IMG/VR virus record: IMGVR_UViG_3300033980_000247
Span: 1-26,651 of that record
Reading direction: 5' to 3' (one strand)
DNA length: 26,651 nucleotides
From: a virus
Made by a program: the position numbers and the translations under genes. Shown piece after piece: positions 844-23,212 of this stretch (positions are counted from its first letter, which is position 1; the number at the start of each line of letters is the position of its first letter). The notes beneath the pieces were generated by a model. That model saw nothing but the letters and a program-made list of their open reading frames with translations, was not told where the DNA came from and searched no databases.

Positions 844-1808
844 TACGATTCGGTTAAAATGTGATATTTCTTTGTAAGCGTCGTGCCGGGATCCCCGCTA
901 CCGCCGGAAGTGTGCAGCGATCCTGTGCTGGCGACCCATGCCGTCATGGCGTGCAAGTCGGTTATCGCAGACCCGGTCAGTTGTGTCCAGTCGATGCCGT
1001 TGGTGCTGTACCAAGTGTCCCCCAAGTTATCGCCTGGCGAACTTGTACCAAAAAACCCACCGATGACCCAGATCTTATCCTTCCAGACAATCGTCTGGTG
1101 ATATTGGCGACCACTGCCCGGGAAAACCCCCTCCTGCACCCATGTGATGCCGTCAGCAGAGGAAAATATCTCTTTCGGATATGTCCTGTTGGCAAGGCTT
1201 GTATCGTCGTAGATGCCGCCGCATATCTTCCAGATGCGCCCTTTGTAACTGACGCAGGATCCCCAAAGGTTGCCGCCCGTGAACGGCGTCGTCGCAATCT
1301 GCGTAAAACTCACGCAGTTGTCCGTCGATTTCAGGACATTGTCATACTTGCCGTCAATTATGTACCTGGTCTTTTGTCCGCCAATAATATAAAACGCTCC
1401 ATTGTGATATGTCGCGCCCATCATGTTCCGCACCCCGATGCCGCAATTAGATGCCTTTTGCGTCCAGGTCGTTCCGTTAAAGACCCAGCTGTCCGTCGCA
1501 GGAAAAAAGACGTCTCCGCCTACAACGTAAACGGTATCTGAAAGTACAAATGTCGCCGCCGTGTGACGTTCCGCAAACGGGAGGTCCGACTGCTTTGTCC
1601 ATGACGTGCCGCCGTTGGTGGACTTATAAAAGTCTTTAAGGCTGTCGCTGTTACCCTCCCATCCAAACGCGATAAAGTCGTTAGCGCCAATACTGAAACC
1701 AAACGACCCATCACGCTCGTCTGGGCGACCGCTCGGCGTCGTCTCGCTCCATGTGTACGTTTTTGGAGTGACAGATAGACCATTTTGAGATGCAAAAAGT
1801 TTCCTCAT
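843..1808 (-). CDS. Kelch/Asp-box beta-propeller protein, likely tail adhesin
   Basis: A 321-residue protein with the internal repeat pattern of a beta-propeller. Di-glycine Kelch-type strands occur (YVVGG, YIIGG, KICGG, WVIGG), each followed by a Trp-containing strand. Asp-box-like motifs (S-x-x-x-G-x-x-W) appear as STNGGTSW, SSADGITW and STNGIDW, with a degenerate copy STDNCVSF. Four to five blades are visible. No signal peptide is present, as expected for a virion protein assembled in the cytoplasm. The start overlaps the stop of the FN3 protein by 4 bp. Such propellers commonly bind glycans or proteins, so receptor recognition is the likely role. I see no complete sialidase active site. 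Confidence 0.7.
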   Translation of the reverse strand: MRKLFASQNGLSVTPKTYTWSETTPSGRPDERDGSFGFSIGANDFIAFGWEGNSDSLKDFYKSTNGGTSWTKQSDLPFAERHTAATFVLSDTVYVVGGDVFFPATDSWVFNGTTWTQKASNCGIGVRNMMGATYHNGAFYIIGGQKTRYIIDGKYDNVLKSTDNCVSFTQIATTPFTGGNLWGSCVSYKGRIWKICGGIYDDTSLANRTYPKEIFSSADGITWVQEGVFPGSGRQYHQTIVWKDKIWVIGGFFGTSSPGDNLGDTWYSTNGIDWTQLTGSAITDLHAMTAWVASTGSLHTSGGSGDPGTTLTKKYHILTES

Positions 1809-3010
1809 ACGTTACGGCTCAACGCTGTTTCAAAGGTTACGACTGCGTCGTTTAGGTTCGTGACGTTGGCATCGTTGAGGCCGTCACCCATAAAGGCGAA
1901 TGCGTACTCGATGCTCGCAAAGTATGTCGCCGTGCCGTCAATGTTTGACGCACCGATGTACATGTTGTAAGTTTCCGGGTTATTCTCGACGGTTGTGGTC
2001 GTGTTGGTCGTGCTGACCTGCGCGCCGTTGCGGTACATCTTTATGACGTTGTTCGCCGTACGGGATATCACGAGCAGCTTGTTAAACCCTGTGCGCGGGT
2101 TCTCAAGGACCCCCTCGTTGTATCCGCTGTTGGTGTTACTGCCCGCCGTACCGAACAGGCGATCCGCGCCGGACGCGTTGTAATATGTCAGACCCGTATC
2201 GATGCCGGACTTTTGCACGCCCATGAACACGCGGTACTCGCTCGCGGTCAATGTCGGGTTATCGCGAGAATACAGACCCACGGCACTGCTGAACTGCGTA
2301 AGGTTAGTGCGAGGAATGTACCCGGTATTAGCGTACCCGTCGGTGCCGTTAGGCTTTGCGCCCGTTGCTGCATGCGTCCATGTCCCGTTGAACGTAAGAT
2401 TGAACGTGCCCGGCTGCTTCAAATTCACAGCATGCGCGGAAGATGACCCGCCGACGAAAGGATAAATGGCATCCATCTTTGACCAAATCCCGTCAGATTT
2501 TAGTTTCGTGACGAGGTTGTTGATTGCGTTGGTGATTGTCGAGTCCGTGATGGCCGCAGCTGTCAGGAACGTCTGGGCATCGCTGTCGATGCTTGTTGTT
2601 GTCGCGTTTGCAATGACAGAATACTCGCTGTTGGAATATGTAACGCCGTCACCGATTGCTTTGAGGCGGTAATAATAGGCCGTCACGGCGTTAAGGCCCG
2701 TATGGCTGTACGATGTGCTGTTCGCTGCAATGGTGCCGCCTATCTGCGTCCATCCGGTGCTTCCGTTCGCGCTCCACTCCAGCAGGTAGCTGCTTTCATT
2801 GCTAACGTCCACCCATGTCAGATTGATGACATTCGATCCGTTAGGCGTTGCCGTCAGTACCGGCGTCGCAAGTTGTATCAATCCGCTTCCGACGTTGAGG
2901 TTGGACAGCTTTACTTTGTAATAGTTTCCGAGCCCATCATCCACCAGCACGAACCATGTATCGGTCGGGCTTGTCGATTCGTTGAACTCGTTGATCATTT
3001 TTTTGGGCAT
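1805..3010 (-). CDS. Tail fibre protein with FN3 and lectin-like (LamG/concanavalin) domains
   Basis: A 401-residue protein in three parts. A short N-terminal segment (about 1-45) is rich in Asn and Asp and resembles a virion attachment region. A fibronectin type III domain (about 48-138) shows the ordered motifs INLTW, YLLEWS and AYYYRLKA. A long C-terminal beta-rich region (about 195-400) resembles a LamG/concanavalin jelly roll. The start at 3010 (MPKK) is used here, but the ATG at 2998 follows a run of six A and may be the real one. FN3 plus a lectin-like fold is a common carbohydrate-binding design in tail fibres, so a host-glycan adhesin is inferred. Confidence 0.72.
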   Translation of the reverse strand: MPKKMINEFNESTSPTDTWFVLVDDGLGNYYKVKLSNLNVGSGLIQLATPVLTATPNGSNVINLTWVDVSNESSYLLEWSANGSTGWTQIGGTIAANSTSYSHTGLNAVTAYYYRLKAIGDGVTYSNSEYSVIANATTTSIDSDAQTFLTAAAITDSTITNAINNLVTKLKSDGIWSKMDAIYPFVGGSSSAHAVNLKQPGTFNLTFNGTWTHAATGAKPNGTDGYANTGYIPRTNLTQFSSAVGLYSRDNPTLTASEYRVFMGVQKSGIDTGLTYYNASGADRLFGTAGSNTNSGYNEGVLENPRTGFNKLLVISRTANNVIKMYRNGAQVSTTNTTTTVENNPETYNMYIGASNIDGTATYFASIEYAFAFMGDGLNDANVTNLNDAVVTFETALSRNV

Positions 3011-3013
3011 GCG

Positions 3014-3562
3014 CTATGTATTAAAGTCGTTAGCCTCGAAGTCAGCTGCGACAAAATCGCTGAACTGCTGCGGGTTGTAAGCAAGTAAATTTCCGTTATT
3101 GTCCACGATATCAACGTCGAGGTTATCCGCCACCAAATATACAATATTCTCGGGCTTGCCGGATATGGTCAGACTGAAACTAAAGTTCGCAAACTGCCCG
3201 ACAGTGCCGGTTATATTGATATCATCAATGATGCAGTCCGCTTCGTATGTTACCTCTTTGTTGATATCATCTGTAATTTTGTACCGCGCGAACACGCTCT
3301 CACGGGCGTGCTGCTTTTCCACCAGATCAAAAATGCTGTAAAGTTCTGTTCCGGTTGAAAGCTTTGCGACACCTTGGCCTTGTATCTGGCCGGTCAGTCT
3401 GCCGTAGATAAATTTCCTCCATTCACCGGAGGAATAAGGCGCGAGCTCGATTTTGTCGGCGGTCGTTGTAACGCTCACATTACTGCTGCACGCGACAGGA
3501 TAAAGCTGAACCCCTATTTTCAGATAAAGGACAAAGTCCTTCCCTTTAATTTCATTACTCAT
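3014..3562 (-). CDS. Second tail-tube-like protein of the tail tip region
   Basis: A 182-residue protein starting at MSNEIKGKD (3562). A longer frame back to 3625 exists but lies wholly inside the previous gene and has an unnatural N-terminus. The 8-bp overlap with the tail-tip gene supports the shorter start. Residues near the N-terminus (KDFVLYLKIG, then YPVACSSNVSV) and the middle (EWRKFIYGRLTGQIQGQG) resemble the beta-sandwich of TP901-1-type major tail proteins. A separate tail tube candidate is encoded at 7943-8386, so this one is probably a tail-tip or fibre-anchoring paralogue using the same fold. Fold assignment is by eye. Confidence 0.6.
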   Translation of the reverse strand: MSNEIKGKDFVLYLKIGVQLYPVACSSNVSVTTTADKIELAPYSSGEWRKFIYGRLTGQIQGQGVAKLSTGTELYSIFDLVEKQHARESVFARYKITDDINKEVTYEADCIIDDINITGTVGQFANFSFSLTISGKPENIVYLVADNLDVDIVDNNGNLLAYNPQQFSDFVAADFEANDFNT

Positions 3563-5570
3563 AGTAAAAATCAAATGAGTGAACATCGTCGACGCCCGGG
3601 TCATTGCTCGGGACTGTCGTGTCAAAAATCTCCGTCAGCGAGGCGGTCCATGTCGCGCTCATAAAATCGATCTCCTTAATGTTGGAGATCCCGTAAACTT
3701 TTGTAGGTGCGTCATCGGCAAAGATAACCGTATTAATCAGCCCGATCGGGTACTTTGTCCCGGCAATGTCCCACGTAAGGCCGTAAAGATTGACATCAAG
3801 CAGCGTCTTATAGGACCTATTCATGAACCACTTTGCCAGTGCGTTTTGACGCTTGAACGTCAGCCGCTCGCTGTCATGGTCACGCCGGAACCAGCGATCG
3901 CCCGTGAGCGTGATGCCATCGGACTTATAGATTGCGCCCTTGTAGGTGTGCGTCTCCGCATCGTCCAGGTACACTGTCTCCGTGAATGTCTTGCTTATGT
4001 CTTTTGAAATTGTGTAGCGGTCATAGTCGCCTTTTACAAGTCCGCGCCGGAGGTTCTTTATTGACGGCTTGACGTCAAAACTGAAATCTTTGACATACCG
4101 GTAAAGCGCGCCAAGATTTGAATAATCATGCACCAGGTACACATGTATGTACCCCGCCACTGGTGTGCCGCCGATCGCCTCGCTGTTAAACTCTTCCCAG
4201 TCCACGCCACTCGTCGAGCGGGCGACGGTGCAGGCGGGTATCAGGGCCCAGGATGTAATCTCGCTCCATGTCCTGCTCGCGCTGTTGTACCCGTATGTTT
4301 TTGCATCGTTGCCGAAGAGGAACACAAAGGCCACTACGTCGGCCGCGGCCGTGATGTTGGCGTCATTGCGGTGCTGGAAACTTATGTCGATATAATCATT
4401 GTCCTCGACGTACACTTTGCAGGATTTCATCCAGCTGTCAGTTGTCGGCTGCGGGACAAGCGCGACAAAATCATCGTCCGGCAAACTGCGGGCCGTGCTT
4501 GCATATCTCCGCCATCTCTCAAGATTGTCCGTAATGTTGGTCGGTGTATTGGGCGTTGCGCCTTTCTGCCATGTCCAGTCATCGACGCTGAATGCGTCAA
4601 ACTCGACCCCCAAAATGCTGAACTCACGCAGCTTTGCGCCCGCCTGGAAGCTCTCATTACAAACCACCTGGGCGAACTTGTCCCAGTTGAAGCGGATGGT
4701 CGTCTGCTTCGACGGCTTCCGGAACGATTTTATCATCTCCGGCATGATGGGCTTCACGCTCTCATTCTCGCCGACCATGATATCGTAACGGGTCTGCGAG
4801 CTTGTCCGGTTGCCGACTGTCGGCCGATCGTTGTTAATAACGTTGAGCGTCTGCGATGGGTCGATGAACATCTCCGGAATACGCACAATCCACCATTCCC
4901 CGCGGTACTGGAAAACAGTCTGACACCATGCGCTGTTGATTTTCTCGAGAACTGTGTAACTATCGTCGAACTGATTGACGGACTGCTCAAATGTCCGCGC
5001 ATCGATCTTGCACTGATCCAGACCCGTTGAAAGGAACGTCGTCGTCATGCCCTCATAAAACAGATTGCTGATGACATGCGACCGGAAACTTTGGTATTTA
5101 CTTTTGTCCCCAGCATAGGCGATGAGGTTAAGCGGCGTAAATGTGCCGACAAGCTGCTCGCCCGCGGTGCTTTGTAGTTGTATGTTTTTCAGGCGTCCGA
5201 TGCCCTCATCTGCGCGCAGTATGATGACGTGCTCCTGATCTATCCAGTTCTCGCTAATATCCTCCTGCGAAATGAACCCATACCAGTACGCCGTCCACGG
5301 ACCGAAATCGAACCGGACCGTGATGTCGTCATCGTTGTCGGATAAAAAATCCTCTATCGTGACGGACCCGTCCGTGACGATCTCGATGGTCGCCTGCTGC
5401 GGCCGGACAGGCTTGAAAATATCATTATCAGAATTGAACTCACCCAATACGAACGGCCTGGTACTGCCTTGTAAAAGTATCACATCGCCAGAATACCCGG
5501 TGACATCAAAGTCAAGACGGCAATCATACCCCTCGACATTCTGAAAATCCATCCGGTACTTTATGCCCAT
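3555..5570 (-). CDS. Large tail-tip / baseplate protein (Dit/Tal-like position)
   Basis: A 671-residue protein directly after the tape measure gene, joined by a TAATG overlap. In siphoviruses this position holds the distal tail and tail-associated baseplate proteins. The N-terminal 150 residues are beta-rich, with WTAYWYGFISQED and HVIILRADEGIGRLK segments typical of tail-tip proteins of Bacteroidota prophages as I recall them. The remainder is beta-structured with many aromatic residues. No peptidase or glycosidase motif was recognised. The likely role is to close the tail tube and anchor the adhesins encoded downstream. Confidence 0.7.
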   Translation of the reverse strand: MGIKYRMDFQNVEGYDCRLDFDVTGYSGDVILLQGSTRPFVLGEFNSDNDIFKPVRPQQATIEIVTDGSVTIEDFLSDNDDDITVRFDFGPWTAYWYGFISQEDISENWIDQEHVIILRADEGIGRLKNIQLQSTAGEQLVGTFTPLNLIAYAGDKSKYQSFRSHVISNLFYEGMTTTFLSTGLDQCKIDARTFEQSVNQFDDSYTVLEKINSAWCQTVFQYRGEWWIVRIPEMFIDPSQTLNVINNDRPTVGNRTSSQTRYDIMVGENESVKPIMPEMIKSFRKPSKQTTIRFNWDKFAQVVCNESFQAGAKLREFSILGVEFDAFSVDDWTWQKGATPNTPTNITDNLERWRRYASTARSLPDDDFVALVPQPTTDSWMKSCKVYVEDNDYIDISFQHRNDANITAAADVVAFVFLFGNDAKTYGYNSASRTWSEITSWALIPACTVARSTSGVDWEEFNSEAIGGTPVAGYIHVYLVHDYSNLGALYRYVKDFSFDVKPSIKNLRRGLVKGDYDRYTISKDISKTFTETVYLDDAETHTYKGAIYKSDGITLTGDRWFRRDHDSERLTFKRQNALAKWFMNRSYKTLLDVNLYGLTWDIAGTKYPIGLINTVIFADDAPTKVYGISNIKEIDFMSATWTASLTEIFDTTVPSNDPGVDDVHSFDFYYE

Positions 5571-7942: not shown

Positions 7943-8386
7943 TTATGGTTGTACGACGACGAGCGTGCCGGTGGACTGCAGGGTGCCGGAGAAATTGATG
8001 TAAGCACCGCCGCTGGCGTCCTGGTTGAGCGTCAGATCGGTGAAATACGCCTCGCTTTCATGGTAGTACACTGTACCCACCGATGACCCGGGGATTGTCG
8101 GGTTCCTGAAACGCACTTTCACTTTTGTACCGGCGTTGATGCAAGTCAGACAATCTTTGTACGATATGCTGCTCCCACCAGGTGCGCTTTCGCAGATGGC
8201 GTCAAAATCGAAGCTGAACCCAGGCGTTCCGACGCTTGTCAGCTTGCCGCAGTTGGTCTCCTCCTCGCTCACGCTCGCGGTCGTATTTACCGATGAGGTA
8301 CGCAGACAGACGAGCGTCTTATAAGCTGAGCCCGCTCCGGTCACATCGATCTCGATGTTTTGTAAATTACCAGCAATTTGTGCCAT
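7943..8386 (-). CDS. Major tail tube protein
   Basis: A 147-residue Gly/Ser/Thr-rich, beta-structured protein placed between the tail terminator and the tail assembly chaperones, which is the standard place of the major tail protein. Features include an N-terminal MAQIAGNLQNIEIDV, several short beta strands and a C-terminal stretch reading AYINFSGTLQSTGTLVV. It starts immediately after the tail terminator stop. The assignment is mainly by synteny and size; the only competing candidate is the second tube-like protein at 3014-3562, which sits in the tail-tip region. Confidence 0.72.
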   Translation of the reverse strand: MAQIAGNLQNIEIDVTGAGSAYKTLVCLRTSSVNTTASVSEEETNCGKLTSVGTPGFSFDFDAICESAPGGSSISYKDCLTCINAGTKVKVRFRNPTIPGSSVGTVYYHESEAYFTDLTLNQDASGGAYINFSGTLQSTGTLVVVQP

Positions 8387-8812: not shown

Positions 8813-9332
8813 CCATTGCTCTTTTTATGTCCTTAACTATCTGCCTGGCGTTGGAAAGAAACGCAGGATACAAAAATGGCTGCGGCCTGATGCCCTCCTT
8901 CATGATTTTCCGCGCGATTAGATAAGCATGATTTTTTGAATCCTTGCCTTTCTCAATGTAGCCTTTTTTCAGCCCCCATTCATGTATGGCATTCACCATG
9001 CCCCTAAATTTGCCCCTCTTTTTTCTTTTTTGAATCCGGCGGGCAATATCTTTTAATTCCGTCGGAACGACTGTCTTCCCCCTCGTCCCAAACTCAATAT
9101 AAGGCGCATGATACGCATTTGCTGCCACCTCCCAAAGTAAATATCCGACCTTTGCGTGTTGAATACTTTGATGGATGCCGGATAGATAAATTGGCGCGCG
9201 CATAATTGCATCCTTCTCTATCTTTATAACCCCGGCCTCAAGGGCGATATCAATCTCCTCCGTCAGCTCGTTCTCAACATCTCGTAATTGGTTCAAGGCG
9301 TTCTGCACCCCGACCAATTTGAAATTAATCAT
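8796..9332 (-). CDS. HK97 gp10-like head-tail joining protein
   Basis: A 178-residue basic protein with an N-terminal helical segment (LNQLRDVENELTEEIDIAL) and the family pattern YHAPYIEFGTRGK followed near the C-terminus by PQPFLYPAF. It carries a Lys-rich insertion of about 30 residues (around 95-125) between these motifs, longer than in the shortest family members. The ATG overlaps the stop of the connector gene by 4 bp. Members act at the head-tail junction. Confidence 0.82.
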   Translation of the reverse strand: MINFKLVGVQNALNQLRDVENELTEEIDIALEAGVIKIEKDAIMRAPIYLSGIHQSIQHAKVGYLLWEVAANAYHAPYIEFGTRGKTVVPTELKDIARRIQKRKKRGKFRGMVNAIHEWGLKKGYIEKGKDSKNHAYLIARKIMKEGIRPQPFLYPAFLSNARQIVKDIKRAMDEKSG

Positions 9333-9832
9333 ATCACGATCCTTTTATACCATATGCTCGCCAGTTCCGGGAAACTGGTCAGGCTGGCCGTCTCATTGCT
9401 TAGCTCGATACCCCTGTTCTGATACGACCATGCGACAATTCTTTTCAGGTCGTTCAAAATGTCATCCGGCACCGTTGTGTACCCGCACTGGTAAAGTATC
9501 TCATGCACACCTGGCGAATACACCTCAATGCTATCGCCGTATTGCTTATACGTCACACAATCGCCTTCGTTTGTTACCGACAAGATCCCCGTCACCGGAC
9601 CGGGCAATGTGTATAGGTCCATCGGTGACATCTCCACGGTCAGCTTGATGGTCTTTTTGCCGAGCTGTAAGCCCGTATAATTCTCAAGCCAAAGGCGGGC
9701 ATTTTTGCAAAGTGACGCGATTAGTGCGTCATCATCGCTGAATGATATTTTCATCGCCGCCTTCGCCGCCGCGGTCGTCAGCGGCTCCGTCGAAAGGTCT
9801 GTCTGAATTTCTTTTGCGATCAATAAATTCAT
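9329..9832 (-). CDS. Head-tail connector (HK97 gp6 / phage_gp6-like adaptor)
   Basis: A 167-residue protein with the typical N-terminal opening of DNA-packaging adaptor proteins. LTTAAAKAAMKISF is followed by DDALIASLCKNARLWLENYTGLQLG, a helix pair that packs against the portal ring. A helix containing DDILNDLKRIVAWSYQNRG follows. Its usual place is directly after the major capsid gene. Here it is separated from the capsid gene by about 3.2 kb holding glycosyltransferases. The start overlaps the GT4 stop by 4 bp, so it is read from the same transcript. Confidence 0.8.
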   Translation of the reverse strand: MNLLIAKEIQTDLSTEPLTTAAAKAAMKISFSDDDALIASLCKNARLWLENYTGLQLGKKTIKLTVEMSPMDLYTLPGPVTGILSVTNEGDCVTYKQYGDSIEVYSPGVHEILYQCGYTTVPDDILNDLKRIVAWSYQNRGIELSNETASLTSFPELASIWYKRIVI

Positions 9833-10815
9833 CGGTATTCCCTCTTTGCTTTGAAAACGAAATCTTCGATCTTTTGCAGTCCCCCAAATGGGTCGAGCTC
9901 GATGGCCCGCTCCTTTGCTTTCTTAGATGCTGCGGAGAATGCTTTTCTTTCATCGAGCTTTTTTATCGCCTTGACCCAGTCCTCTACCTTGTCCCGGTCC
10001 TGTATGTATATCCCCGCCTCGCCACAATTTTCAAGCAGCCCCGGCGTGCTCGAGCATATCACCGGGATCCCGCTCGCCATCGCCTCCGTCGCCGTCCGTC
10101 CCCAGCTTTCGTATTTGCTCGGCATTATCAGGATGCGTGTCTTTTCATAGACTTTCCTGATATCCTCCTGCTTTTCCCACACCTCGACATTCGGCGGCTG
10201 GTCAATGTGCTGCCCTATCGATGCAGGCTCCGAATACGATCCTTTAACCCCGATGAATTTCTTGTCCGGCATTGCCTTTGCAATCTCTCGCAAAATATGC
10301 CCTCCCTTGTTCTGGTCGAGGTTAATGAGCGTAATATAGTCACTTTTCTGCGGGTCAGGGTTGCAGTTATAAACACGATAGTCACATGCCGGTGGTACAA
10401 CGATCGAATCGTGCTTATAATTTAGTTTTTTGGCTGCCCATTCCGAATTATAAACTATGTATTGCGGATTTTCTGCATCGACAATGCAGTCGTATTTGTG
10501 CGTGTTGTGTATGAGATGCACGACGGGCAGCTTGAATATTTTTCCCATCTCGACGGTCCATGCAGCATAATCCAAATGCGTGAAAACAACGTCCGAGGCG
10601 TTAAATAAGTTGGTTATAAATGTCGGGTCTGACGGGAATACATCAATGCCGTCATAAATGTAATGCTCTGTAATCTTGTAATGGTTCGCCTGGTGCAGCA
10701 GGACCTTAACAGTGTGCCCTTTGCCTGCAAGGTATTTGTTGATTGCATGGAGCATAAACTCCGCGCCGCATAAGTGTTTAGGCGGGTAAAGATGGACCGA
10801 GCAAAGTATGTTCAT
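9829..10815 (-). CDS. Glycosyltransferase family 4-like, GT-B fold
   Basis: A 328-residue protein. The N-terminal Rossmann-like half begins MNILCSVHLYPP with a GAE motif where GT4 enzymes bind the acceptor side. The C-terminal half has the nucleotide-sugar segment ITLINLDQNKGG and the family's E-x7-E motif in YESWGRTATEAMASGIPVI (about 242-260), followed by a Gly/Glu-rich segment. Length is slightly short for GT4, which suits a compact phage version. No signal peptide or membrane anchor is seen, so it acts in the cytoplasm. It is the last of four transferases. The sugar and acceptor cannot be deduced. Confidence 0.85.
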   Translation of the reverse strand: MNILCSVHLYPPKHLCGAEFMLHAINKYLAGKGHTVKVLLHQANHYKITEHYIYDGIDVFPSDPTFITNLFNASDVVFTHLDYAAWTVEMGKIFKLPVVHLIHNTHKYDCIVDAENPQYIVYNSEWAAKKLNYKHDSIVVPPACDYRVYNCNPDPQKSDYITLINLDQNKGGHILREIAKAMPDKKFIGVKGSYSEPASIGQHIDQPPNVEVWEKQEDIRKVYEKTRILIMPSKYESWGRTATEAMASGIPVICSSTPGLLENCGEAGIYIQDRDKVEDWVKAIKKLDERKAFSAASKKAKERAIELDPFGGLQKIEDFVFKAKREYR

Positions 10816-11017
10816 GGTATTCTAATTCGATTAGTATGTCAAGATAATGCCGCGCTTTTTTCAAGTCCTCAAGTCCATTCTTAAACTTATGACGCATGAT
10901 GTACTTTATGATGTTCCCCTCGATGTATGGCAGCCCGTTGGCATGGATAAATTCAATCGGTTGAATCTTACATTGCTTGTAATGCTGACCGCCCTCCTGC
11001 GTCTCTAGCGCGCTCAT
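10778..11017 (-). CDS. DUF3310 protein
   Basis: A 79-residue protein starting at MSALETQEGG (11017), whose ATG overlaps the GT11 stop by 4 bp. A longer open frame to 11167 runs inside the GT11 gene and has an Arg/Ser-rich shadow N-terminus, so I reject it. The core shows the DUF3310 pattern: HYKQCKIQPIEFI, then NIIKYIMRHKFKNGLEDLKKARHYLD. The family is common in phage genomes and has been labelled a nucleotide kinase without firm evidence that I know of. It usually sits with replication or nucleotide genes, so its place among glycosyltransferases is unusual. It overlaps the GT4 start by 38 bp. Confidence 0.85.
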   Translation of the reverse strand: MSALETQEGGQHYKQCKIQPIEFIHANGLPYIEGNIIKYIMRHKFKNGLEDLKKARHYLDILIELEYHEHTLLGPSLPA

Positions 11018-11757
11018 ACGACTACCCATTTTTCGGGATAAATGTCTTTGGTCTCCAAATGCGCCGCCGCAGGTCCGAACCATTGTCGAGGTGCGACTAC
11101 TTGCCCGCCGGCGAGCCATGCGGCCCACCAGGAAAATGTACTGTTCGCGATGATATGGTTGGCGCATTTTTTCATAAGCCGAAAATCCTCATAAGTCGTC
11201 CCGCTCTGATAAACATCATGCCCACCCATAAACTGCCCCAGGATCTCCTTTGCCTTGACGATGTCATCTGAAAATATCATGTAAGGTCCCTTTAGATGCT
11301 TCATCGCCTCAACATAGTACCATTTGCTGCAAATAGGGTGATACTCGCCCCCATAATCCCCGCACCTGATATGGATAGCAGTGTAAGGCAGTGGCTCGCT
11401 TTCGTCCTTTAACGTGAACAGGTGGCGGATATAATCCGCGCAGTGAATGAAATACTTTTCGCTTTGCATGTGGCCGACATATGACCACCCGTCCGGATGA
11501 TTCAGCCCTTGCCATCCCCAGGCAACGTGGTAATCGCCCATATCTTTATCCAGTCGTTTGACGGTCTCCCAATACGGAAACCACCGTCCGACATTGACAT
11601 CTTCCTTACTCCCGAACCGTTCCACCGCGTCATGGTTCACCCACTTCGGAAAAGCATAGTCGTACCCGTTCGCCTTTGCGATGCCGATTGTGCTGGCCAC
11701 TTGAAACAGCTGGTTTGCAAAACGGCCGTATCGTCCCAGGTTGGCAAAAGTTACCAT
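11014..11757 (-). CDS. GT11 family glycosyltransferase (alpha-1,2-fucosyltransferase-like)
   Basis: A 247-residue protein with the three landmarks of GT11. The N-terminal GRFANQLFQ (11-19) corresponds to the family's G-x-x-x-N-Q-x-F. The donor-binding motif reads HIRCGDY (129-135) in place of HxRRGDY. The C-terminal block ANSTFSWWAAWL (about 209-220) matches the conserved N-S-[ST]-F-S-W-W-x-A-W-L. FSDD (near 167) is also typical. GT11 enzymes transfer fucose from GDP-fucose to galactose-type acceptors. The Cys in the donor motif is a variation. No GDP-fucose biosynthesis genes are in the window, so the host would have to supply the donor. Confidence 0.88.
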   Translation of the reverse strand: MVTFANLGRYGRFANQLFQVASTIGIAKANGYDYAFPKWVNHDAVERFGSKEDVNVGRWFPYWETVKRLDKDMGDYHVAWGWQGLNHPDGWSYVGHMQSEKYFIHCADYIRHLFTLKDESEPLPYTAIHIRCGDYGGEYHPICSKWYYVEAMKHLKGPYMIFSDDIVKAKEILGQFMGGHDVYQSGTTYEDFRLMKKCANHIIANSTFSWWAAWLAGGQVVAPRQWFGPAAAHLETKDIYPEKWVVV

Positions 11758-12440
11758 TCCTCATTCCTTTTCCTGTGATGATGGAATATGACCGGATAAG
11801 TGTCCATGTATGTACCCTTGTCGTAAATGAAAGCCCCGTCGTTATACATCGCCGGCCACCAGTGCAGTTTTAACCCGTGCCATTGTTGCAAGCAAGTAAG
11901 GATCGCCTGGTCGTGTCTGTGCTCCTGAAACTCCGGATGTTGGTCGACTTTCAAAACGTCATTTATAAAGTCCGGCATCTGCGACCATAGCAGCCACTCA
12001 CGCACAAAGTTACGCGAGAACTTTGTCGCTTTAATGACAATAGCTGATGCCTGCGCCTGCAGCTTATCCTTAGCAAACATGAGGACATACACCTCTCGCT
12101 TGCACCAGTGAATATGCCGGTAATGGTTGCCGAAGATCATGATGTCCTGGTCCATTGCGTCCACAAGATGTTGAATATTATCGACGACTTCGACCCCTGC
12201 GTCGATATAAAGCAACACATCACTCTCGTCCATATTTGAAAGGCACTGGTCGATGATGTACGGTTTCCATAGCCAATACCCCGCTCCGCGCGGATGGTTC
12301 AACGTGTCAAAGTTTTGCAGATAGAACTCCGATGATATTTCGGCATGGATCGGTGTCGCTCCGAAATTTTGCGCGGACCTTAAAGCAAGATCCCTGCTCC
12401 TGCTCATGTTCTCGCTGGCATATGTCGTGACGTATATCAT
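11751..12440 (-). CDS. GT-A-fold glycosyltransferase-like protein, family unassigned
   Basis: A 229-residue protein. The motif GAGYWLWKPYII (52-63), the hydrophobic strand and metal-binding-like DVLLYIDAG (74-82), and a later HRHDQAILTCL are the pattern of nucleotide-diphosphosugar transferases that include surface polysaccharide enzymes. YIDAG could supply the DxD-equivalent acidic residue. The start overlaps the GT25 stop by 4 bp and the stop overlaps the GT11 start by 7 bp. No membrane segment is visible. Acceptor and sugar are unknown. Confidence 0.7.
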   Translation of the reverse strand: MIYVTTYASENMSRSRDLALRSAQNFGATPIHAEISSEFYLQNFDTLNHPRGAGYWLWKPYIIDQCLSNMDESDVLLYIDAGVEVVDNIQHLVDAMDQDIMIFGNHYRHIHWCKREVYVLMFAKDKLQAQASAIVIKATKFSRNFVREWLLWSQMPDFINDVLKVDQHPEFQEHRHDQAILTCLQQWHGLKLHWWPAMYNDGAFIYDKGTYMDTYPVIFHHHRKRNEEW

Positions 12441-13048
12441 ATCAATTCACGAAGATAATCCTCTGACGCTATAAATGTATCGGTGTAGTCCACATTCCTG
12501 TCCCAAAGGTCCGAGCGGGTCGGGCGCTGGAACGACAGGAACGGGTATGTTACATATGCGCTATAATGTGGCAATATAGTGTCAGAAAGAAAAGTGTCGT
12601 ACATAACGCCATCCTGATACATCTCGATAATGCTGGCGGCCATGTCGGCAGTGTAGGCAACGGCGTGTGTAGTGTATGCAGCCCTAACGCGGAAAATGTG
12701 GTCAGTGACTTTTATAGGCGCCGGATGGTCCGGGTACGGCTTAAGGTTTGCGCCGAAATAAATGATGTCCCACCCTTTGGGCATGTCCGCTATAATCTCG
12801 TCCAGCTTACCCATGTGCCGGAATGTGGCATCGTCCTCGAATAAAACGGCGGTCTCTTTGCCGCTATCGACAAAGTCCCGCAGCATGGAGATCTGGGACT
12901 TGTTAAAACTTGCATGCGGACTTTCGTCCTCTATGGCATAGAACCATTTATAACTGAAATCTGCCCCCTGCTCGAACAAATATCGGCGGTCCACCCTGGC
13001 GCGCTGGGTCAAGACGGCAATGTGGTCAAAATGGTCGTTGAAAGTCAT
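12437..13048 (-). CDS. Glycosyltransferase family 25-like (LPS biosynthesis type)
   Basis: A 203-residue protein. It opens with the family's IAVLTQRARVDRR pattern and carries VLFEDDA (69-74), the conserved acidic E-D-D motif of GT25 that binds the metal and nucleotide sugar. GWDIIYFGAN follows, then a C-terminal region holding HAVAYTADMA. GT25 members include bacterial LPS galactosyl/glucosyltransferases. It is the first gene after the intrinsic terminator downstream of the capsid gene, so its expression would depend on read-through or a local promoter. No Shine-Dalgarno is seen before the ATG. Confidence 0.83.
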   Translation of the reverse strand: MTFNDHFDHIAVLTQRARVDRRYLFEQGADFSYKWFYAIEDESPHASFNKSQISMLRDFVDSGKETAVLFEDDATFRHMGKLDEIIADMPKGWDIIYFGANLKPYPDHPAPIKVTDHIFRVRAAYTTHAVAYTADMAASIIEMYQDGVMYDTFLSDTILPHYSAYVTYPFLSFQRPTRSDLWDRNVDYTDTFIASEDYLRELI

Positions 13049-13061
13049 GGTTTGCGAAATG

Positions 13062-13097
13062 AAAAAAGGGAGCCGCCCGGCGCGACCCCCCTTTTTT
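13062..13097 (-). terminator. Intrinsic terminator after the major capsid gene
   Basis: On the minus strand an A-rich arm ending in GGG (AAAAAAGGG) pairs with CCCTTTTTT across a GC-rich loop that contains its own GCC/GGC inner stem. The hairpin is followed by a T-run. The arms are A and T rich at both ends, so it could work in both directions. It fills the 54-bp gap between the capsid and GT25 genes, the only clear intergenic gap in this part of the operon. Confidence 0.75.
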
Positions 13098-13102
13098 TAG
13101 AA

Positions 13103-14251
13103 TTATGCAGATGTACCGGTCGTGCCGTACACAGCAGCCTTCGGCTGGAACGAGAGGAGCTCGATCCGGGCCTCGGCGCGGTAGGTGACGAGGTTCTTTA
13201 TGAAGTCGCTCTGATCGAACTCGGTGCTGCGGACCTGCAGGCCGGAAGCCTGAGCAGTTGCGAACGCGTCGGTGTTCAGAACGTAGAACCTGCTGCCTGT
13301 TACCTGGCTGTGCGGAACCACGGGAATACCGTTGATGCGGATGCGGCCGTCGGCATCGACTGCAACGGATGCAGGTACGCCAAAGTTTGACGGCTTAGTC
13401 AGCAGCAGGGTGCTCCATGCGGCCCATGTGGTCAGGATCAGGTTCGGCATGCCGAGACCCAGGTCGCCATGCTGTGCAACACCTGCAATCATCTTCGACA
13501 CGGTTAGCGTCTCGGAAGTAGACAGCGCGGTGCTGTTGGTGGCGATGGTGTTCAGGTACCTTGTATTCACAGCCCTGTTCCAGTCCTCAATGAGGGACTG
13601 CGAAAGGTAGGACTGCAGGAAAGGCAGATCCTGCAGCATCTGGCGGGACACTTTCACGTAACCAGCGATGAAGGGAACGCTCACGTTCACCATTGTCACA
13701 TCGTAATCGATCTGTGCCTTGTCATTGCCTTCGGTCTGGGCTCCAAACGATCCCTCACCGACAGGGCTGTTGCCACGCGGGAAAGTAACGTTACCGGTAG
13801 CGGTCGGAACAATCCGGAACACATCGTAAAGATGCGGATTATAGAACGACCTCATGATGGGGTTCGGAACGTAGCTGATCTGGCTGGTGCCGGTCAGGTT
13901 GTCTGTCAGGTTCATCGTTCCGACGATTTTCATCGCGGAGAATGCCTGCTCGGACTTCATCTTCTCGTGATTTTCAGCCACGATCTCATTCACCGCGTTC
14001 TTAAGGTAGTCGCTGTTGGTCCAGCCTGCTTTTTCAACCTGCGCAGCTTTCAGCTTGCCGTTGGAAGCTACAAGGCTGTCCACCTTTGCTTTCAGTTCGG
14101 CAATGCTCTCGCCTTTTTTGGCGGCATCTTCATTCAGTTGTGCAACGTCTGCGGCGACCTTGCTGTCAAGTTTGGCTACCTCTGCGGTAAGCTCGTCTTT
14201 GTGGCCCTTGAGCTTTGGGTCAAGTGCCTCCATGATGTCCTTTACTTCCAT
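13103..14251 (-). CDS. Major capsid protein (HK97 fold)
   Basis: A 382-residue protein. Residues 1 to about 85 are a charged, heptad-like coiled coil (delta/scaffolding domain) that the neighbouring protease probably removes. The remainder shows HK97-fold features: an N-arm, the segment VPFIAGYVKVSRQMLQDLPF (E-loop and spine-helix region) and the C-terminal block FYVLNTDAFATAQASG. Order portal, Mu-F, protease, capsid is canonical. The capsid stop is followed directly by the intrinsic terminator at 13062-13097. Confidence 0.92.
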   Translation of the reverse strand: MEVKDIMEALDPKLKGHKDELTAEVAKLDSKVAADVAQLNEDAAKKGESIAELKAKVDSLVASNGKLKAAQVEKAGWTNSDYLKNAVNEIVAENHEKMKSEQAFSAMKIVGTMNLTDNLTGTSQISYVPNPIMRSFYNPHLYDVFRIVPTATGNVTFPRGNSPVGEGSFGAQTEGNDKAQIDYDVTMVNVSVPFIAGYVKVSRQMLQDLPFLQSYLSQSLIEDWNRAVNTRYLNTIATNSTALSTSETLTVSKMIAGVAQHGDLGLGMPNLILTTWAAWSTLLLTKPSNFGVPASVAVDADGRIRINGIPVVPHSQVTGSRFYVLNTDAFATAQASGLQVRSTEFDQSDFIKNLVTYRAEARIELLSFQPKAAVYGTTGTSA

Positions 14252-14252
14252 C

Positions 14253-15080
14253 TTAGAAATGTTTGTGAATTAATAATTGAATTGCCTGCTTAACCTTATC
14301 GTCCTCGGCCTTTGGCTGCTCGACGGGTGCCTCAACGACTGCCCTGGCGCTACTCATGTCCTCGATAAGTTGATTTAGCTGTTTTATCTCAAGCAGCAGC
14401 AGCTCGATGGTCTCGTCTGTTGCGTCTGTTGATTTTACGAATTTCTCGAGCTTTTTCAGTCGCTCGATCCGGTTGTGCATGTCGTGACCTTTCATACCAA
14501 GCAAAGGCGTGTATTCATTTGCGCCCCATGACGTCAGGCTAGACCCCTCGAACAGTTTGATGTCAAGCAGCTCATTGGCGCTGTCGCCTTTCTGCTCTTT
14601 TATCACGTTGAACCCGATGCTGTGTTCTTTCACGAGATCGCTCTCGACCATCTTTATAAAATCCTGCCCCAGGTTGTGCTTGCCGATCTGGCTCTCGTAA
14701 TAAAGGCCGTAAGCGTCCTCCTTCAGGTCCATAATCTTACCCAGCGGCTGACGCGGGTCATGGTTCAGCAGGTGCTTTATGCGTCCTTTCGGAAACCAGT
14801 CGTTAATGCTTTTCTGAAACGCACCCGGTCGGATGATGTCCCCATCGCTGTCTTTTATGTTAAACGCGGAAAAGTAACCAGTGACGATGCCTTTTTTTGC
14901 ATCGACGTCTTTTACTTCCTGCTGCAATCGTTTGTATCCGTATATCATTCTCTTATTTTTTGAACTTTCTTCCGCTGCCAAATATGCCACATATGCGCGT
15001 TCGGCGGCGGGTTTGCTGGTGTACATGCAAGGCCCGTCGCCTATCCTATATTTCCCGTCTCCGCACGCGTATATCGGCAT
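14253..15080 (-). CDS. Prohead maturation protease (HK97 U35-type) with N-terminal extra module
   Basis: A 275-residue protein starting at MPIYACGDGK (15080), two bases after the Mu-F stop. A longer frame to 15146 is open but would lie inside the Mu-F gene. Residues 1 to about 35 form a small module (KYRIGDGPCMYTS, AAERAYVAYLAA) that I recall from phage head proteins of Bacteroidota. The protease core follows: GIVTGYFSAFNIKDSDGDII, HLLNHD (His103/107), EHSIGF (Ser154) and LFEGSSLTSWGANE. His and Ser match the catalytic pattern of HK97 gp4; which acidic residue completes the triad (E178 or a neighbour) is uncertain. A coiled-coil tail (about 190-250) may be a scaffold part. Confidence 0.87.
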   Translation of the reverse strand: MPIYACGDGKYRIGDGPCMYTSKPAAERAYVAYLAAEESSKNKRMIYGYKRLQQEVKDVDAKKGIVTGYFSAFNIKDSDGDIIRPGAFQKSINDWFPKGRIKHLLNHDPRQPLGKIMDLKEDAYGLYYESQIGKHNLGQDFIKMVESDLVKEHSIGFNVIKEQKGDSANELLDIKLFEGSSLTSWGANEYTPLLGMKGHDMHNRIERLKKLEKFVKSTDATDETIELLLLEIKQLNQLIEDMSSARAVVEAPVEQPKAEDDKVKQAIQLLIHKHF

Positions 15081-15082
15081 GT

Positions 15083-15892
15083 CTATCGTTTTACAAGTCG
15101 GCCCCTTTCGTCTCTTTTCGGCGTGAACGCTACCACACATCGGCAATTAATCGTGAATGATGCCGGAGCGTTTGGATCTCCTGGCTGTGCTGCGACTGCC
15201 GTGATGCCTTTCAGTCCCGTTTGCTCAAAGTTTGCATCCATCTCCCTCACCTGTCCGTCCATTGCCCAGTGGTCAAACTCGTCTTTTTTGCTGAACCGTC
15301 TTGTCAGCTTGTCGTTCCCGGCCACCCATTCTTTCGTCAGTACCGTGCGGCTCTTTGCCGCCGCCTCCATCGCCCCGACATTTGATGCCCTTCCAACCTC
15401 TGTCCTTGCGATTGTTAGGGCTCTCGGATACTGCACGATGTAACTATTGGCGATGTTCAGCGCGATCTCCCGATAGCTTAACTGCTGTTCCTCGCCTTGC
15501 GTGATGATTTTCAAAAGCTCCTGCTTTGTCGTGTCATCCATTCGTGTGACGAGGTCCAGCGCATGCCTGCCCAAAATGTTCACAATGCGCTGAATAATGT
15601 CAGCATTAAAAAACACGTCCTTTCGCTCCTGTACCTGCAAAGATCTGTTCACATTTATCGCAAATTGCAGGCCGACTTTTTTGTAAAGGTCCATAATGAG
15701 CTTTATAAACTCATCGTTGAACATGGGCATCTTTGACCATGCCGCCTGAAACCCGATACTGTCCGCCTCTTTCACCAATGCATCCACCTGACGCTTAATC
15801 AATGCCTGTATCTTTTTCGCATAATTGACCTCATGCTTCCGCATCTGTCGGCCCGCCGCTAACCAGTATTTCCTCCGCTCTGCGAAATTCAT
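15083..15892 (-). CDS. Mu gpF-like minor head / head morphogenesis protein
   Basis: A 269-residue basic protein with a long helical N-terminal half. It has the Mu-F family core LTIARTEVGRASNVGAMEAA and the C-terminal pattern EFDHWAMDGQ, then FTINCRCVV, which ends many family members. It lies between portal and protease, as expected for the head protein that is packaged with or bound to the portal. The ATG at 15892 overlaps the preceding small ORF by 62 bp; a downstream ATG at 15844 would shorten this to 14 bp, but residues before it (ERRKYWLAAGRQ) look natural. Confidence 0.87.
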   Translation of the reverse strand: MNFAERRKYWLAAGRQMRKHEVNYAKKIQALIKRQVDALVKEADSIGFQAAWSKMPMFNDEFIKLIMDLYKKVGLQFAINVNRSLQVQERKDVFFNADIIQRIVNILGRHALDLVTRMDDTTKQELLKIITQGEEQQLSYREIALNIANSYIVQYPRALTIARTEVGRASNVGAMEAAAKSRTVLTKEWVAGNDKLTRRFSKKDEFDHWAMDGQVREMDANFEQTGLKGITAVAAQPGDPNAPASFTINCRCVVAFTPKRDERGRLVKR

Positions 15893-23094: not shown

Positions 23095-23116
23095 GACTTA
23101 CTCATGCAAAAAACAG

Positions 23117-23212
23117 TGTCGGGGACAGGAATCGAACCTGTAAAGTTTGGGAGACCTCTTTATAAGCAACTTAAATGCTGTCCATGCGGTTAACCAATTC
23201 CGCCACCCCGAC
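23117..23212 (-). tRNA. tRNA-Leu (anticodon TAA), structurally unusual
   Basis: The minus strand folds with a perfect 7-bp acceptor stem GTCGGGG/CCCCGAC and discriminator A. The D-arm is GCGG/CCGC with GG in its loop, and the T-arm is ACAGG-TTCGATT-CCTGT. The anticodon hairpin AGCA-TTTAAGT-TGCT puts TAA at positions 34-36 after the invariant T33. A long variable region fits a type II tRNA such as tRNA-Leu. Oddities: the anticodon stem has only 4 clean pairs, and six bases (ATGGAC) separate D-arm and anticodon stem where one is normal. No CCA is encoded. Confidence 0.75.

Follow-up and report, generated by a model that had tools for sequence, protein, structure and literature searches.

Glycosylation of phage virions is already known, and for mycobacteriophages the primary paper on it is reportedly Freeman 2023. 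A second system to compare is that of PBCV-1, an algal virus whose capsid is unrelated to the HK97 type. In the mycobacteriophages Che8, Corndog and Myrna, phage-encoded glycosyltransferases (GTs) are described, and both capsid and tail tube subunits are reported to carry glycans (PMC11256854, PMC12363180, PMC12619734; what we take from the cited papers here and below follows excerpts of them). PBCV-1 is described as making its capsid glycan with galactosyl-, xylosyl-, fucosyl- and rhamnosyltransferases and with methyltransferases of its own, some of which have biochemical proof while others are inferred (PMC9614988). Here we examine a viral DNA of 26,651 nucleotides (nt) (IMG/VR record IMGVR_UViG_3300033980_000247, positions 1 to 26,651; 'the window' throughout), in which a cassette of four GT genes stands between the gene for an HK97-type major capsid protein (MCP) and that for a head-tail connector. 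Judged from their genes, the phages that carry this cassette probably decorate their virions with a sugar chain of their own making; our search of the open-licence literature found no multi-GT cassette that is conserved, mobile, tied to the capsid gene and equipped with a tailoring slot.

The likeness to the mycobacteriophages lies in phage-encoded GTs, with capsid glycans reported there and genes alone known here. Unlike the window, Che8 has its head-to-tail adaptor gene directly after the capsid gene, and the GTs of the related phage Maravista lie near the 3′ end of the genome (PMC11256854 or PMC12363180). A four-GT cassette that includes a tailoring slot does not feature in the excerpts, a distinction drawn between descriptions and not between enzymes. 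PBCV-1 (A064R, A061L, A111/114R, GMD) resembles the present case in using GTs and methyltransferases for an O-methylated, fucose-containing capsid glycan, and the fold of the window's GT-A enzyme matches domain 1 of A64R; however, a GT-A sequence profile misses A64R in the PDB, the numbering of the PBCV-1 genes points to scattered loci, and early expression is described for eight candidates (PMC9614988). Among tailed phages, gp20 of Streptomyces phage TurkishDelight is a homologue of the window's GT4 (30% over 99% of it), whose gene comes third after that for the major capsid protein and immediately precedes the major tail gene, but it is probably a fused double GT4, judging from its length and two matches, and no other GT is annotated in the stretch viewed. 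The T4-like cyanophages P-TIM68 and S-SM2 carry neighbouring pairs, distant GT11 and GT-A homologues in the former and annotated GT11 and GT25 genes in the latter, but among nucleotide-sugar metabolism genes and, in P-TIM68, at a distance of about 56 kb from the genes for prohead protease and scaffold. Large aquatic 'moraphages' have four GT orthogroups in their core genome, with virion glycosylation as one possible role; they are large phages, and the excerpted description gives neither GT families nor a location relative to the capsid gene (PMC12619734).

Linkage of the cassette to the capsid gene

A search with the MCP returned 67 loci (related records are labelled L with a number), most of which read MCP-GT25-GTA-GT11-GT4-connector where the contig reaches, with GT4 alone in a few. 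Because these loci had been chosen by their MCP, we added searches with the terminase (best 80 of 144) and with GT-A alignments (the best 80 relatives of 267 in one scan and of 260 in another); a further scan, A6, covered the best 80 of 498. Clustering at 95% identity groups the 163 GT-A loci, drawn from a set of 240 loci, into 79 clusters, and loci L325-L416 were examined apart from this set. The MCP gene is upstream in 63 clusters, lies between GT11 and GT4 in seven and was not detected in nine; the full gene order of the window is present in 45 of the 79. For the 42 clusters reached solely by the GT-A scans, the corresponding numbers are 26 upstream, seven downstream and nine without a detected MCP. 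In eight of these nine, one or both contig ends lie no more than about 2.2 kb from GT-A. The ninth, L311, extends for 5.4 kb upstream of GT-A and for 6.1 kb downstream of it, and we give no verdict on it because the MCP of the rearranged group described below sits 3.6-7.3 kb downstream of GT-A. By our own criterion, the GT genes are genetically tied to virion genes. In cassette-free relatives, the connector follows 41-1681 nt after the MCP, in most at less than 400 nt, so the view of an earlier sequence-only reading of this DNA, that the capsid gene is normally followed directly by the connector, broadly holds. The GT4-only version, seen in five loci on four connector-reaching contigs, has, besides GT4, a single extra open reading frame (ORF), which in L053 is a methyltransferase by Pfam. 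L335 and L340 were also considered as GT4-only loci and rejected, being rearranged-type contigs cut upstream.

When GT presence is placed on trees of the same 41 loci, one change is needed on the MCP tree and six on the terminase tree. For 59 loci, the portal and protease trees need three changes each and the connector tree four, compared with one for the MCP. Across the sets, the counts are 3 for the portal, 3-4 for the protease, 2-5 for the connector and 1-2 for the MCP, and shuffled presence gives means of 19-28. The GTs are inherited largely together with the MCP.

The same enzymes also accompany very different heads. Seven loci (L309, L312, L314, L317, L318, L320 and L321) share a rearranged order, GT25-GTA-GT11-protease-MCP-GT4, in which GTs flank the protease and MCP on both sides. 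In L309, L312, L317, L318 and L320, the MCP is 16-23% identical to those of the other types, whereas GT25 retains 28-55%, GT-A 38-52% and GT11 39-60%; the portals of three members are 15-19% identical to the others. Pfam recognises the MCP (PF05065) in L309, L312 and L320 and the protease in L312, and in L320 a connector follows GT4 (PHROG). The terminase is of Terminase_6 type in L309 and L312, compared with Terminase_3 type in the window, and that of L320 gave no match. A search with the L312 capsid found 17 loci (three being the contigs of L312, L314 and L317), in all of which the capsid gene has GT11 or GT4 close by. Because the MCPs have diverged so far while the three GTs keep 28-60% identity, the cassette appears from these comparisons to have moved between heads, yet to have stayed around the MCP. 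The idea that it is restricted to window-type MCPs was rejected, since it also occurs with MCPs 28-36% and 18-23% identical.

The four enzymes and the variable slot

The sequence-only reading had placed four GT genes (GT25, GT-A, GT11 and GT4) at 9829-13048 between the MCP and connector genes. All four are there as intact ORFs, and the family labels stand: by Pfam for GT11 and GT4, by profile and model for GT25, and by model for GT-A. The cassette genes have ratios of nonsynonymous to synonymous substitution (dN/dS) of 0.02-0.10 when the window, L001 and L005 are compared, and are under purifying selection. The protease row was left out of this calculation owing to impossible values, probably from misaligned coordinates. 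Higher synonymous divergence of GT25, GT-A and GT11 than of the MCP was not taken as a sign of recombination, as the portal and one Neck1 pair are high too.

The GT11 protein belongs to its family by a Pfam score of 67.7 bits against a cut-off of 23.9, and its PHROG is annotated as a glycosyltransferase; we take GT11 to be a family of the alpha-1,2-fucosyltransferase type. A PDB match of this protein to an antibody chain was dismissed as chance. The GT4 protein carries a GT4/group-1 domain, and E236 and E244, which correspond to its EX7E motif, are nearly invariant in the alignment. Pfam gave no match at E≤0.01 for the GT25 and GT-A proteins. A GT25 profile run against PDB sequences found mimivirus R655, a putative glycosyltransferase (E 3e-9), and procollagen galactosyltransferase 1 (E 2e-8). 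The AlphaFold model of GT25 (mean confidence, pLDDT, 93) has as its top Foldseek match COLGALT1, the human collagen galactosyltransferase (E 5e-12, template-modelling score 0.70), with R655 close behind, and profile and fold together place the protein in GT25.

The GT-A model (pLDDT 89) matches many enzymes of this fold (best Foldseek E 2e-6). In a VIA re-ranking, PBCV-1 A64R, described as glycosylating the PBCV-1 major capsid protein, and GT6 enzymes tie for first place at Z about 14; the superposition on A64R domain 1 (Z 14.2, root-mean-square deviation 3.2, 178 aligned) establishes similarity of fold. The GT-A sequence profile matched no GT of the PDB, and the A64R chain was absent among its matches at E≤5. 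The likeness to GT6 (ABO and alpha-1,3-Gal transferases) is likewise a tie in fold. In 17 of 17 aligned relatives, E71-D72-D73 of GT25 and Y78, D80-A-G and E84 of GT-A are invariant, the acidic residues among them presumably being of the kind expected in an active site. The sequence-only reading's suggestion that such unlike enzymes build a glycan stepwise is consistent with these conserved motifs and with the gene order.

The junction of GT-A and GT11, empty in the window, is a variable slot in relatives. L005, a near relative with a 99% identical MCP, has a gene resembling DNA N6/N4-methylases there (10495-11103), as does L150 (4461-5060). Extra ORFs lie inside the cassette in 46 loci of a set made up of the 79 representatives, L052 and L053. 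Those of at least 60 amino acids (aa) number 164, in 79 ORF clusters, many of them small and perhaps not genes. The two largest clusters (29 and 14 ORFs) are FkbM-like, although weakly so, their representatives scoring 22.9-25.9 bits where Pfam requires 22.7. Another cluster, of 11 ORFs, is methyltransferase-like, with one representative lacking a Pfam match and another below the cut-off; a GIY-YIG-like cluster of seven ORFs is also below it. Three ORFs of GDP-L-fucose-synthase type lie in the GT-A/GT11 interval (three of 24 related records), and NCBIfam names the enzyme in L317 alone, with a score of 448 below the equivalog cut-off of 500. These genes lend weight to the sequence-only reading's guess, made from GT11, that fucose is involved. 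As a whole, the slot looks like part of a scheme in which a glycan core receives exchangeable caps. In L282, the slot holds a 607-aa ORF (12020-13840) rich in Ser, Thr and Ala and structural-looking by eye.

Layout of the window

On the minus strand, the genes run terminase, portal, MuF-like protein, S78 protease, MCP, GT25, GT-A, GT11, DUF3310, GT4 and connector (Table 1). From GT25 to the connector, successive genes overlap by 4, 7, 4, 38 (DUF3310/GT4) and 4 nt by coordinates, and the sole gap is the 54 nt between the MCP and GT25. The coupled run of GTs proposed in the sequence-only reading is borne out by these overlaps; the DUF3310 ORF within it, the hairpin in the gap before GT25 and the variable slot of the relatives had gone unmentioned. 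The DUF3310 gene is also found in L001-L003, L005 and, by eye, L007.

Table 1. Capsid gene, cassette and bordering features in the window
Feature	Position	Strand	Evidence
S78 prohead protease, upstream of MCP	14253..15146	-	PF04586 E 9e-19
HK97-type MCP, proposed acceptor	13103..14251	-	PF05065 E 6e-14, phrog_10, TIGR01554
Terminator-like hairpin between MCP and GT25, proposed attenuator	13062..13096	-	-23.2 kcal/mol, z -3.9
GT25-like glycosyltransferase	12437..13048	-	AlphaFold model, Foldseek, PDB profile search, invariant E71-D72-D73
GT-A-fold glycosyltransferase	11751..12440	-	AlphaFold model, Foldseek, VIA, invariant Y78, D80-A-G, E84
GT-A/GT11 junction, slot site in relatives; empty in window (7-nt overlap)	11751..11757	-	
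GT11-family glycosyltransferase	11014..11757	-	PF01531 E 1.4e-18, phrog_2644 E 7e-50
Small DUF3310 protein of 79 aa, overlapping GT11 at ATGA	10778..11017	-	PF11753 E 7e-15 (on longer ORF)
GT4-family glycosyltransferase, 4-nt overlap with connector start	9829..10815	-	PF13692 E 1e-16, PF00534 E 1e-15, phrog_26352 E 2e-69
Head-tail connector, downstream border of cassette	9329..9832	-	PF05135 E 3e-7, phrog_442

Of 71 cassette loci, 66 have a hairpin similar to that of the window in the 90 nt that follow the MCP, compared with 13 of 60 control segments. It is also found in 32 of 33 cassette-free loci, so we rejected it as a cassette-specific feature and regard it as a general property of the 3′ end of the capsid gene. 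A simple terminator scan did not list the window's hairpin.

By MCP, the nearest named phages are Cellulophaga and Flavobacterium phages (29% identical), and the MCP has one weak match in 395 genomes from the phylum of L229, a Flavobacterium; a host among freshwater Bacteroidota is a guess. Elsewhere in the window, proteins at 7943-8386 and 3014-3625 (-) both match the major tail protein family phrog_1407, with E 1e-12 and 1e-13, and a pair of tail-tube-like proteins may therefore be encoded by this phage. A Kelch-repeat-like protein (843-1808, -) is encoded downstream of the tail genes and adjoins an fn3-like protein (1805-3010). ARAGORN calls a tRNA-Asn of 97 nt with the unusual anticodon att at 23116-23212 (-), which may be a false call.

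A proposed virion glycan and its alternatives

We propose, with a probability of about 0.6, that these phages build a fucosylated, variably methylated glycan stepwise on their own virion, most likely on the MCP. The four GTs would act one after another in the cytoplasm of the infected cell to make a short oligosaccharide, with hexose-type sugars added by GT25 and the GT-A enzyme, fucose by GT11 and one further sugar by GT4; in many relatives, the methyltransferase-like enzymes of the slot would then cap it. Since the GT genes sit behind the hairpin of the MCP gene, they would be expressed by read-through of it, at enzyme-like rather than shell-like levels. The chain might shield the particle against surface binding or degradation, or alter its adhesion. 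What the sequences show directly are the genes with their folds and conserved residues, the selection on them, their linkage to and inheritance with the MCP, and the slot; what we infer is where the sugars are attached, which sugars they are (with the strongest backing for fucose), in which order the enzymes act, how much of them is made and what the phage gains. In favour of the proposal, the top fold match of GT25, COLGALT1, glycosylates protein, the joint-first VIA match of GT-A, A64R, is described as acting on a capsid protein, and the slot's methyltransferase-like and GDP-L-fucose synthase genes would parallel the enzyme set for the chlorovirus capsid glycan. The sequence-only reading had offered virion glycosylation as one of two jobs, and this one gains from the fit to the MCP tree and from the flanking of the MCP even in very different heads.

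Several observations weigh against this proposal. A comparison of MCP C-termini yielded no acceptor site: at least two Ser or Thr among the last six residues occur in 21 of 46 cassette, three of six GT4-only and four of 18 cassette-free non-redundant MCPs, which is a weak enrichment. A C-terminal site suggested by the endings GTTGT, AGTT and AGANS was set aside as a lead only, since other cassette capsids end in FIYA, FVYL or VGGA. In one of the three tree sets, of 83 loci, the connector equals the MCP (two changes each), so physical linkage accounts for part of the tree signal; moreover, the trees are of a quick kind, and the rearranged group lies outside the tree sets, its terminase and connector being unrecognised by the profiles used. 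Foldseek itself puts LARGE1 and glycogenin first for the GT-A model and A64R at rank 18. Che8, with a capsid reported to be glycosylated, shows the adaptor gene in the place where the cassette would stand. The sequence-only reading held that the same genes found elsewhere with a host-envelope role would speak against capsid glycosylation, and this is partly the case at long range: distant GT11, GT-A and GT25 homologues (22-38%) sit in sugar clusters of T4-like cyanophages. The GT-A family is also widespread in cells, twice near a GT11. An unannotated 735-kb phage, LR756501, encodes distant homologues of GT-A and of GT25 with about 12 kb between them.

In an alternative explanation, the cassette remodels a surface glycan of the host, such as lipopolysaccharide, during infection, for example by adding fucose and another sugar, and so keeps progeny and superinfecting phages from binding to the dying cell and its debris. 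We consider this unlikely, although it is the strongest of the alternatives. It can draw on the polysaccharide-type setting of the cyanophage clusters, on enzymes that look soluble and could use lipid-linked precursors, and on the cellular relatives of GT-A, which a pattern-based scan of 84,980 species genomes showed to be common. In two of these, L200 and L244, the relative has a GT11-like gene within about 3 kb, a hint that such a pair may cooperate in cells as well. However, none of the 80 cellular GT-A loci examined (the best 80 of 82, some of them short) lies beside such head genes, and the linkage to the MCP persists across very different heads. The place of the cassette among late head genes would also be late for exclusion of other phages. 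Clusters for lysogenic conversion of the gtr type include a flippase and a lipid-carrier GT, whereas Pfam recognised neither among the window's cassette proteins and the slot proteins scanned, which cover part of the slot clusters. Of 24 related records, all possibly fragmentary, one encodes an integrase (PF00589). This count and the lack of such head genes beside the cellular GT-A loci make lysogenic conversion less probable; taken overall, the interpretation of the sequence-only reading is partly supported.

Closer to our proposal, the GTs could glycosylate another part of the virion, such as the tail tube, fibres or neck, with the MCP site serving merely as a tolerated insertion point in a late operon. 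Such an arrangement might be expected from the 4-nt overlap of GT4 with the connector gene and from GT4-only versions at the same insertion point, and tail tube subunits are glycosylated in mycobacteriophages too (PMC12619734). It is nonetheless improbable, as GT presence fits the MCP tree better than those of the portal and the protease and also, for two of the three sets, than that of the connector, and as the rearranged phages carry GTs on both sides of the protease and MCP. Modification of phage DNA, by glucosylation of hydroxymethylated bases, is a frequent task of phage GTs (PMC12619734), and the DNA methylase-like slot genes of L005 and L150 could be read in this light. Still, it gives no reason for the linkage to the capsid gene, and the thymidylate-synthase family (PF00303) is found in none of the 24 possibly fragmentary records. 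To our knowledge, none of GT25, GT11 and GDP-fucose synthase is a DNA-glucosylation enzyme, and we regard this explanation as very improbable.

Glycosylation of the virion, and most likely of the MCP, therefore remains our preferred reading, and a broader version can be put forward more tentatively. The cassette may be a mobile capsid-glycan module, widespread in uncultured tailed phages, in which a four-enzyme core with an exchangeable methyl-capping slot moves between HK97-type heads, stays on the capsid gene, and gives a chlorovirus-like shell, fucosylated and O-methylated, whose outer chemistry is switched by a single slot gene. Going by fold, the combination of GT25, GT11 and a GT6-like enzyme could even make an epitope resembling histo-blood groups (Gal, Fuc, alpha-Gal/GalNAc) on a phage.

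Reports of phage virion glycosylation have so far come from a few mycobacteriophages. If our proposal is true, a cassette fixed around the capsid gene suggests that sugar-coated particles are common among tailed phages, and the cassette would be a sequence marker for finding them. A comparison of sister phages in which the cassette is complete, consists of GT4 alone or is absent would then make the purpose of capsid glycosylation testable.

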